From assembly GCF_000519325.1 (NCBI RefSeq), contig NZ_KI912613.1:3268759-3332758 (forward strand): a stretch of 64,000 nucleotides of DNA, read 5' to 3'. The position numbers and the translations under genes were made by a program. Positions 36,943-40,724 of this stretch are shown piece by piece; position 1 is the first letter of the stretch, and each line of letters opens with the position of its first letter. Source of the stretch: Patulibacter minatonensis DSM 18081. Lineage in GTDB: Bacteria > Actinomycetota > Thermoleophilia > Solirubrobacterales > Solirubrobacteraceae. The notes beneath the pieces were generated by a model that was given only the letters and a program-made list of their open reading frames with translations, ran no database searches and was not told where the DNA came from.

Positions 36943-37985
36943 TCAGGTCTGCGTGCGGCGCGTCTCGTCGCGGATCTCGCCGACGAGCTCCTCGAGCACG
37001 TCCTCGAGCGCGACGACGCCGAGCACGGCCCCGTCGTCGTCGCGGACCCGCGCCAGGTGGGCGCGGGAGCGCTGCATCGTCTGCAGCACCGTCCGCAGGC
37101 GGTCACCCGAGTCGACCGTCGGCAGCATCCGGCGGTCGCGGGCCGGGACGGGGCGGTCGCGGTCGGCGTCGTCCTCGCCGAGCAGGTCCTTCAGGTGCAG
37201 GTAGCCCGACAGCGAGCCGTCGGGGTGCTGGACGGGGAACCGCGAGTAGCCGGTGGTGCCCGCGAGGAGCTCGACCTCGGCCGGCGTCGCCTGCGGGCCC
37301 ACGGTCTCGAGCTCCGCGGTCGGGAGCAGCACGGCCAGGGCGGTGCGGTCCTCGAACTGCAGGGCGTCGAGCAGCAGGCGCCCCTCGTCGTCGTCGAGCA
37401 GGCCCTCGCGGTGGGACTCCTCGACGAGGTCCGCGACCTCGTCGCGGGTGAACGCGCTGGTGACCTCGTCCTTCGGCTCGACGCCGACGGTGCGGAGCGT
37501 GACGTTCGCCACCCAGTTCAGGGCCGCGATGAACGGGCGCAGGCCTCGGACGATGAGGACCAGCAGCGGCGCGAGCACGAGCGCGGAGCGGTCCGGGCCC
37601 GCCAGCGCGATGTTCTTCGGCACCATCTCGCCGATCACGACGTGCAGGAACACGACGAGCAGCAGCGCGATGGCGAACGCGATCGGGTGCAGCAGCGACT
37701 CGCCGATCCCGACGTCGTGGAGCAGCGGCTCGATCAGGTGCGCGACCGCGGGCTCGCCGATGTAGCCGAGACCGAGCGAGCAGATCGTGATGCCGAGCTG
37801 CGCGCCCGCCATCATCAGGGAGACGTTCTCCATCGCGCCCAGCGTGATCTTCGCGACGCGCGAACCGCCCTCCGCGCGCGGCTCGATCTCGGTGCGGCGG
37901 GCGGAGATCAGCGCGAACTCCGCGCCGACGAAGAAGGCGTTCAGGCCGAGCAGGACGACCGCGAGGAGGATGCCGACGCCGTCGC

Positions 37986-37989
<4 letters not shown>
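36943..37989 (-). CDS. CNNM/CorC-type transporter with DUF21 and CBS domains, gene 2
   Basis: 348-aa membrane protein. The DUF21 core (LNAFFVGAEFALISARRTEI, LMMAGAQLGITICSLGLGYI, VVFLHVVIGEMVPKNIAL) is the divalent-cation transport domain of the CNNM/MpfA family. A CBS pair follows (GTTGYSRFPVQHPDG; AHLARVRDDDGAVLGVVALE, DVLEELVGEI). No CorC-HlyC C-terminal domain is present, so it is shorter than its partner. The start overlaps the partner stop (ATGA). The pair probably works together in Mg2+ handling. Confidence 0.9.
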
Positions 37990-39340
<1,351 letters not shown>

Positions 39341-39344
<4 letters not shown>

Positions 39345-39487
39345 CGGATGCGCCCCCGGGCGGAGAGGTCCTCAGCTGACGTGCGTGCGCGTGCCAGGAC
39401 GCGCTCGACACCTCGAGGAGGATCGTCGTCGGCGTGCGCTGACGCACGCTCGGGACTGGAGGACTCGTCGTCCAGCGGGGTCGTCAT
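39341..39487 (-). CDS. Small acidic leader ORF coupled to CNNM transporter
   Basis: 48-aa ORF starting at ATG 39487, with TACCAT 8 bases upstream. Its stop TGA shares bases with the CNNM ATG (ATGA). The N-terminal half is Asp/Glu/Ser/Pro-rich: LDDESSSPERAS, then AHADDDPPRG. Five successive codons for D-P-P-R-G (GAT CCT CCT CGA GGT) all end in A or T, unusual here. Overall about 13 of 47 codons end in A/T. A 7-bp hairpin lies inside (39432-39449). It could be a real small protein or a regulatory leader peptide; the coupling and promoter are directly visible. Confidence 0.6.
39432..39449 (-). promoter_or_regulatory. Hairpin within the CNNM leader ORF
   Basis: GCGTGCG / CGCACGC arms around a four-base loop, located mid-ORF just before the Asp-Asp-Asp-Pro-Pro codons in the direction of transcription. 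Confidence 0.45.
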
Positions 39488-39495
39488 TCACGACC

Positions 39496-39501
39496 ATGGT
39501 A
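39496..39501 (-). promoter_or_regulatory. -10 element TACCAT of the leader ORF-CNNM operon
   Basis: TACCAT on the minus strand ends 8 bases before the ATG at 39487, but 152 bases before the CNNM start. This makes the small ORF the first gene of the operon. Confidence 0.55.
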
Positions 39502-39545
39502 CGGACGTGGCCGACGGATGCGAGCCGGGTGGGCGGTCCTCGGGG

Positions 39546-40724
39546 TCAGGCGCGATCGGACCCGCGCGCCTCGAGGGCCCGGAGATCGAGCTCGCTCGCC
39601 GAGCGCAGGTACCGCGAGACCGCCTCCGAGCGGTTCGCCGCCCCGAGCTTGCGCAGGATGTGCTTGACGTGCGCCTTGACCGTCCCGACCGTGACGACGA
39701 GCTCGTCCGCGATCGCCTTGTTCGTCCCGCCGGTCGCCATCAGGCGGATCACCTCGACCTCGCGCCGGGTCAGCAGCGCCTCGATCGGCGCGGCGGGCGT
39801 GAGCAGGCGTCCGGCCGCCGCACGGGACTCCGCGTCGCTGAGGGCCTCGGCGTGCGTGAGCCGCAGGTCGTCCTCGGCGGCGTCGTCGAGGAGCTCCACG
39901 GTCTCGAGCAGCGCGGCGCGCGTCCGGTCGCGCTGCCGGCGCAGGCGCTCGGCCATCACGGTGCGCTCGAACGCGTAGCCGAAGCCCTCGGCGAACGCCC
40001 AGACGAGGTCGCGGTCGAGCTCGTCGCAGACCCGCCCGGAGTAGAGGCAGTCGGCGTGGACGAAGCCGATCACCTTGCCCGACGGCATGATCGGGGCGGC
40101 GACGTACGAGCGGGTGCGGGCGAAGTCGGCGAGCCCCCGCGGGACGCGCGGGTCCGACGGGGCGTCGACGACGAGGCACGGCGCACGCCGGCGGATCATC
40201 TCGGTCTCCAGCAGCATGTGGTCCAGGCGCGGCGCGGCCGACCGCGCGTACGCGAGCATCTCCTCCGCGCCGCGCGGGTCGCCCTCCCAGTACGCGGCCT
40301 CCATCACCATCCGGCCGTCGTGGACCCGGAAGAGGTTCGCCCGGTCGACGTCGCAGGCGCGCACGAGCTCCTTCGGCGCGACCTCCAGGATCGACGAGGA
40401 CGAGGTCGCGCGGCGCAGTCCGCCGAGTGCGTCCTGGAGCCCGACGAGCGCCGCCAGGCGGCGGCGCATCGCGTGGGACGCGCGCTCCTCCGCGAGGACC
40501 TTCGCCTCGAGCGCCTCCTCCAGCTGCGCGACGACGTCGAGGTCGCCGTGACGCTCCAGCGCGTCCTGGACCGCGCGCATCCGGGTCTCGAAGACGTCCG
40601 CGAGCTCGTCGGCGCCGGGCTCCGCGGACGTCGCACCGGCCGGCCGTCGGGAGCCCCAGCCCGGCAGGTCGGCGGACGGTGCGGCCGGCACGTCGCCGAC
40701 CACGTCCTGGCTGCTCGTGCCCAT
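39546..40724 (-). CDS. LuxR-family regulator with GAF-like sensory domain
   Basis: 392-aa regulator. Residues ~100-260 resemble a GAF domain (LGGLRRATSSSSILEVAPKE, LFRVHDGRMVMEAAYWEGD, SYVAAPIMPSGKVIGFVHAD). The C-terminal LuxR HTH is clear: LLTRREVEVIRLMATGGTNK, then AIADELVVTVGTVKAHVKHI. It is divergent from the P450 gene, whose transcription it may control. CATCCT ends 6 bases before the ATG. Confidence 0.87.
   Translation of the reverse strand: MGTSSQDVVGDVPAAPSADLPGWGSRRPAGATSAEPGADELADVFETRMRAVQDALERHGDLDVVAQLEEALEAKVLAEERASHAMRRRLAALVGLQDALGGLRRATSSSSILEVAPKELVRACDVDRANLFRVHDGRMVMEAAYWEGDPRGAEEMLAYARSAAPRLDHMLLETEMIRRRAPCLVVDAPSDPRVPRGLADFARTRSYVAAPIMPSGKVIGFVHADCLYSGRVCDELDRDLVWAFAEGFGYAFERTVMAERLRRQRDRTRAALLETVELLDDAAEDDLRLTHAEALSDAESRAAAGRLLTPAAPIEALLTRREVEVIRLMATGGTNKAIADELVVTVGTVKAHVKHILRKLGAANRSEAVSRYLRSASELDLRALEARGSDRA

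Follow-up and report, generated by a model that had tools for sequence, protein, structure and literature searches.

Only for a handful of enterobacterial genes is Mg2+ known to be sensed through the nascent chain, and in most phyla Mg2+ efflux has no known regulator. In the window, that is, the whole 64,000-nucleotide stretch of Patulibacter minatonensis DSM 18081 DNA that was analysed, a short acidic ORF runs into the start of a gene for a CNNM Mg2+ transporter. This locus raises the question of whether the short ORF is a genuine leader of the CNNM gene and, if so, whether its nascent peptide may set CNNM translation according to Mg2+, as an original prediction made from the window alone had proposed.

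Locus, promoter and start of the leader

The host genome comprises 5.52 Mb in one contig, and the features of the locus are collected in Table 1. In the CNNM search, the closest named relatives are from Patulibacter (79–89% identity); the solved relatives of the first CNNM protein in the PDB are CorC (4hg0) and CNNM-family structures (7m1t/7m1u). The predicted 48-aa ORF was confirmed; its TGA shares bases with the CNNM start as ATGA, the CNNM ATG being at 39344. The ORF alone is no evidence, since a 48-codon open frame is cheap in a genome this G+C-rich, and it is the comparative data that carry the case. BLAST of the leader against plasmid sequences gave no match. A shadow ORF at 39372–39497 (MVVNDDPAGRR...) was also considered and rejected, as its NDDP is not retained among relatives.

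Table 1. Coordinates of the leader, its neighbouring genes and its internal elements in the window
Feature	Position	Strand	Description
Second CNNM protein	36943–37989	minus	Start overlaps stop of first CNNM gene; same operon
CNNM/CorC Mg2+ transporter	37986–39344	minus	452 aa; CNNM, CBS pair and CorC_HlyC domains (Pfam)
Leader ORF	39341–39487	minus	ATG, 48 codons and TGA; peptide MTTPLDDESSSPERASAHADDDPPRGVERVLARARTSAEDLSARGRIR; genus Patulibacter
Hairpin H2 (GCGCGT ... ACGCGC)	39387–39404	minus	First paired base 17 nt past GAT, the final acidic codon in motif 2
Acidic motif 2, DDDPPRG	39410–39430	minus	Holds rare-codon run GAT CCT CCT CGA GGT
Hairpin H1 (GCGTGC ... GCACGC)	39432–39449	minus	First paired base 14 nt past GAG, the final acidic codon in motif 1
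Acidic motif 1, DDE-SSSP	39452–39472	minus	Codons 6–12; equivalents MDDDPGSSPRR, MTDDPSCSPKR, VDDPPNSSSP, MGEPPSSS
TACCAT, likely -10 box	39496–39501	minus	8 nt 5' of leader ATG
GAF-LuxR family regulator	39546–40724	minus	Directly 5' of leader, same direction

The leader promoter is placed in the short gap between the GAF-LuxR gene and the leader ORF. The TACCAT promoter that had been assigned to the leader held up as a real box, likely acting as the -10: a TANNNT box lies 7–8 nt 5' of the ATG in all seven Patulibacter leaders checked, and at 20 of 55 motif starts vs. 54 of 855 control starts. A simple sigma-70 consensus scan at the leader promoter found nothing, and a -35 match is absent. With TACCAT only 8 nt from the ATG, the leader mRNA is probably leaderless, as judged from this spacing.

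Conservation of the leader peptide and its motif

The leader ORF is present in 8/8 genomes of the genus Patulibacter, and an overlapping ORF in the same frame precedes CNNM in other Solirubrobacterales, Curtobacterium, Brevibacterium, Frankia, a family with genomes of 7–11 Mb (f26) and others. Each of these ORFs terminates on the CNNM start, as ATGA or TGATG, and has an acidic start-proximal part with Pro, Ser or Cys; the leaders of relatives begin with MDDDPGSSPRR, MTDDPSCSPKR, MSEPALDEPPGSSPKR, VDDPPNSSSP, MDDPPSCS, MGEPPSSS, MHSDSPGRREAG or MKDSDDAGCSSG. The acidic/Pro/Ser start is kept, while the remainder of the leader, including its C-terminal part, diverges. The conservation in relatives on which the original prediction depended was therefore found: the ORF, the acidic/Pro/Ser motif and the CNNM overlap are all kept well beyond the genus, in numerous families of Actinomycetota.

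Of 135 dereplicated CNNM loci, 49 carry a strict acidic-Pro motif, vs. 74 of 3,827 random ATGA/GTGA sites and 4 of 149 in the window, such sites in the loci and the window serving as the control. Within the groups, the strict motif is found in 4/8 loci of the own genus (loose motif, 8/8), 33/38 in the other genera of the order Solirubrobacterales, 16/16 in Curtobacterium, 7/8 in family f59 (loose, 8/8) and 11/15 in family f26 (loose, 12/15); Brevibacterium, which carries only SDSP, has the strict motif in 1/18 and the loose one in 17/18; in family f31 (strict, 0/19), the overlapping ORF is present with the motif about 30 codons in; and more distant CNNM genes are mostly without it (2/12). Of 59 motif-bearing starts, 50 are in the +1 frame with respect to CNNM, and 53 of the 59 ORFs overlap the CNNM start. 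A count independent of the motif gave ATG-started ORFs reaching the CNNM start at 86 dereplicated loci in frame +1, whereas the two remaining frames gave 5 and 19, an excess that arises in part because CNNM genes starting ATGA or GTGA supply a stop in frame +1.

Several variant arrangements were also observed. Eight f31 loci (L147, L149, L176, L182, L183, L186, L189 and L192) have a different leader, VPQAPVEA..., before CNNM, with (D)AEPSSSRPG about 30 codons in, followed immediately by a strong GCCGGGC/GCCCGGC hairpin; this leader may work as the others do, its acidic motif having shifted downstream. At L153, L163 and L165–L167, the TGA of a short ORF (MSRRxxGR*) overlaps the ATG of the MTDDPSCSPKR leader, so that three ORFs up to CNNM are chained by ATGA overlaps. 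In one Solirubrobacterales genus (L265, L267, L268, L273–L278, L283, L284, L287 and L289–L291), a second AUG keeps a fixed position just past the likely -10 box and some 22 nt 5' of the MDDDP ATG. It starts an ORF of 14 codons, MxxxGxxDGRRPR[L/F]*, which overlaps the MDDDP ORF in another frame and whose stop is retained even where TAG has changed to TAA.

Selection appears to act on the peptide, since DDPP, DDDP and GEPP are kept with differing synonymous codons between species while the rest diverges, and since the frame is maintained (14 of 15 in one genus) although leader lengths vary. Codon-position substitution counts gave a mild third-position skew, in some groups none, and the argument therefore rests on the motif, the frame and the synonymous codons; some synonymous sites at the motif are themselves conserved. 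The leader is also restricted to its target gene. When 232 genomes of the order were scanned with a sequence model built on the Solirubrobacterales leader, 30 matches were strong (E ≤ 1.2e-7), after which the scores fall off towards chance, and 30/30 of the strong ones lie at CNNM genes. CorA leaders lack the motif, one weak match being found among the 18 that could be scored, so the leader does not come with every Mg2+ gene; MgtE, which would have served as a second Mg2+ control gene, is absent from the genus Patulibacter. We therefore regard the ORF as almost certainly a real, conserved leader peptide dedicated to CNNM.

The two acidic runs first noticed, LDDES and ADDDPPRG, are both present, the leader containing DDE-SSSP and ADDDPPRG. 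The DDDPP motif singled out by the original prediction fared unevenly: DDDPPRG is kept only at genus level, whereas the start-proximal acidic/Pro/Ser motif is widespread. By sequence comparison, then, the widely conserved motif is the first, start-proximal DDE/DDxP-SSP, of which Patulibacter has a weaker form (DDESSSP rather than DDPP), and DDDPPRG is a second, genus-level copy. The five rare codons noticed at DPPRG (GAT CCT CCT CGA GGT, 39410–39424) are a real run, with relative synonymous use of 0.03–0.06 in neighbouring genes and a chance of about 1e-5 for at least five consecutive A/T-ending codons. However, DDDPPR in a congener (G005) is spelled with common, different synonymous codons, so the run is not required; these rare codons, which are not conserved in all species, are probably not the sensor.

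Conserved rare codons (AGT/TGT/TCT and CCT) do occur at the motif, though not universally, and with the hairpin just 3' of the motif they would suit an arrest-type attenuator for another signal. Here the ribosome would pause at DDxPxSSP or DPP through Pro, rare Ser/Pro codons and a hairpin roadblock, and the signal would be polyamines, another cation or the state of EF-P/EttA rather than Mg2+ as such; CorC-domain proteins do handle polyamines and other cations too (PMC12421838). We consider such an attenuator quite unlikely, as drop-off that Mg2+ suppresses is known to be marked by acidic residues early in the chain (PMC9718836), the target gene is from a Mg2+ transporter family and the rare codons are not universal.

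Hairpins behind the acidic codons

The internal hairpin noticed at the outset is real and conserved in six Patulibacter species, but there are two of them rather than one. H1 and H2, both 6-bp GC hairpins, are 100% paired in these six species, and 3 of their 12 pairs are changed on both sides, comprising a UA-to-CG compensation in H1 in two of the six species and two pairs in H2. The fold of the whole leader is unremarkable (z -0.96). In the f31 and Brevibacterium groups, hairpins stand at similar distances after the acidic codon. In Solirubrobacterales, one hairpin lies right against the start of CNNM, whose SD it masks above shuffles, with four Watson–Crick pair types at one position; it was recovered by a register-anchored count, in which the four GCGC pairs are the anchor and not evidence. 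When the Solirubrobacterales leaders were aligned with MAFFT, RNAalifold found no consensus pairs, the 3' arms being out of register.

The covariation in Patulibacter and Solirubrobacterales, together with the conserved synonymous sites at the motif, would also fit an RNA element, in which the hairpins are a riboswitch or a protein-binding site and the ORF is incidental. We hold this to be very unlikely: hairpin position and sequence change between groups while the peptide motif and frame persist, the Solirubrobacterales stretch is without a consensus fold of its own, and no Rfam family, the M-box model included, matched at the leader. An Rfam match to the sRNA Ms_IGR-5 (L029, 914–1089), which lies some 0.9 kb 5' of the CNNM gene in a Brachybacterium, is unrelated to the leader.

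General SD masking as the coupling device found no support in Patulibacter, where the CNNM SD is not masked beyond the level of shuffled sequences (7.1 vs. 7.8 kcal/mol); the genus is therefore not expected to show tight coupling. Another reading is plain translational coupling, in which the leader does no more than pass ribosomes from a leaderless transcript to CNNM, at an unvarying rate and whatever its amino acids. A leaderless start and an ATGA overlap would suffice for that by themselves, and the lack of excess SD masking in Patulibacter and the unconserved C-terminal part of the peptide speak for it. Yet the start-proximal amino acids are precisely the conserved part, with synonymous changes, across families, and the hairpins following the acidic codons are conserved as well, which makes plain coupling an unlikely account.

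Proposed Mg2+ sensing and comparison with known leaders

Mg2+ sensing by ribosome destabilisation, acting in cis and dedicated to the CNNM exporter, is the best mechanism we can offer for the leader, and we give it about an even chance of being right. It has been reported that acidic residues early in the chain, aided by proline, cause bacterial ribosomes to drop off and that Mg2+ suppresses this IRD (PMC9718836), that EPDP in MgtL causes ribosome drop-off at low Mg2+ (PMC11282234) and that the acidic codons of mgtQ act on mgtB (PMC8092293), and in sequence comparison the leader motif resembles E. coli MgtL. However, di-acidic motifs alone may be insufficient for IRD (PMC11282234), and the two to three acidic residues of the leader are modest for it. 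In the proposed mechanism, transcription would start at, or probably no more than 2 nt from, the leader ATG, so that 70S ribosomes could load directly on the leader. The acidic residues of the short nascent chain, with Pro/Ser (DDE-SSSP, then DDDPP), would weaken the ribosome, and the GC hairpin shortly 3' of each acidic cluster is placed where it could slow the ribosome, the hairpins thus possibly acting as amplifiers. At low cytoplasmic Mg2+, many ribosomes would abort before the overlapping ATGA and CNNM would stay untranslated, whereas at high Mg2+ the ribosomes would stay intact, finish at the TGA and start anew on the ATG that overlaps it, and the exporter would be made. The translation of the leader, its coupling to CNNM, the abortion and the Mg2+ dependence with its sign are what we infer from this arrangement.

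Given the overlap of the leader stop with the CNNM start, efficient CNNM translation would require the leader to be read to its end, which points to positive coupling with CNNM ON at high Mg2+; this suits an exporter and is opposite in sign to mgtL. The same sensor could in principle work with the opposite sign, CNNM being switched on, after the manner of mgtL-mgtA or mgtQ-mgtB, by the RNA fold that drop-off at low Mg2+ leaves behind, and both characterised acidic leaders do give low-Mg2+ induction (PMC11282234, PMC8092293). Even so, full translation would be the ON state, given that the overlap of stop and start is conserved and that hairpins mask the SD in Solirubrobacterales, and bacterial CNNM/CorC relatives are linked to efflux: in Salmonella, high Mg2+ induces corC and mgpA, for which a part in Mg2+ efflux is suggested (PMC12421838). 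The opposite sign is accordingly the least probable of the readings considered. The general idea that the leader may set CNNM translation thus survives as a peptide-level, CNNM-dedicated leader that conservation supports, with its sign, its sensor motif and the role of its rare codons revised.

The known systems share parts of this arrangement. In mgtL-mgtA of E. coli and Salmonella, a short ORF likewise precedes a Mg2+ transporter gene, has acidic residues and Pro after the start and then Arg (compare MDDDPGSSPRR), and drop-off at low Mg2+ is proposed for both. However, 140 nt separate the end of mgtL from mgtA, and its mechanism is transcription attenuation, by which an importer is induced at low Mg2+, whereas the Patulibacter leader, from another phylum and probably leaderless, overlaps the start of an exporter-type gene; in place of a separate ORF with a long attenuating leader, an overlapping ORF was found, with no intrinsic terminator-like site within 39300–39650. 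In Salmonella mgtQ-mgtB, the acidic codons of a short ORF also control translation of the next Mg2+ transporter via ribosome abortion (PMC8092293), but mgtQ sits inside an operon, between mgtC and mgtB, and abortion raises mgtB translation, where abortion on the Patulibacter leader should lower CNNM.

For the coupling, the closest likeness is E. coli yoaL-yoaE (mgpA), in which the leader ORF extends over the start codon of a gene for a CorC-domain transporter and, when translated, raises the downstream protein (PMC12421838); YoaL, however, is not acidic (MDRHRRHFSIRPF...), and YoaE is a TerC-CorC protein and not a CNNM. CorC itself carries an IRD sequence (PMC12421838). For the N-terminal IRD of E. 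coli CorC/YbeX, an acidic early nascent chain is proposed to give CorC-family expression ON at high Mg2+ (Chadani 2021, as cited in PMC12421838); there, going by that citation, the motif lies inside CorC itself, while in Patulibacter it is on a separate leader peptide. The M-box of M. tuberculosis, with its small conserved uORF, is likewise an actinobacterial Mg2+ control (PMC12810186), but its sensor is the M-box aptamer, and the Patulibacter leader is without an M-box. The leader is thus mgtL-like in its proposed sensor and yoaL-like in its coupling, and a member of neither; a non-exhaustive search of the open-access literature found no earlier description of such a CNNM leader.

Taken across the phylum, the leaders may represent an Actinomycetota switch in which an acidic-proline leader on a leaderless mRNA gauges free Mg2+ via ribosome stability and turns the CNNM exporter ON at high Mg2+ by stop-start coupling, with hairpins timed to the acidic codons amplifying, the logic of mgtL inverted, an origin outside the enterobacteria and a tandem duplicate in Patulibacter; we put this fuller picture forward tentatively, as somewhat short of an even chance. 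With 20–30 codons, the leaders are compact natural constructs in which the contributions of acidic residues, proline and an mRNA hairpin to ribosome ejection can be tested. If the proposal is true, ribosome stability would be a general gauge of intracellular Mg2+, and it would explain how bacteria turn on Mg2+ efflux.
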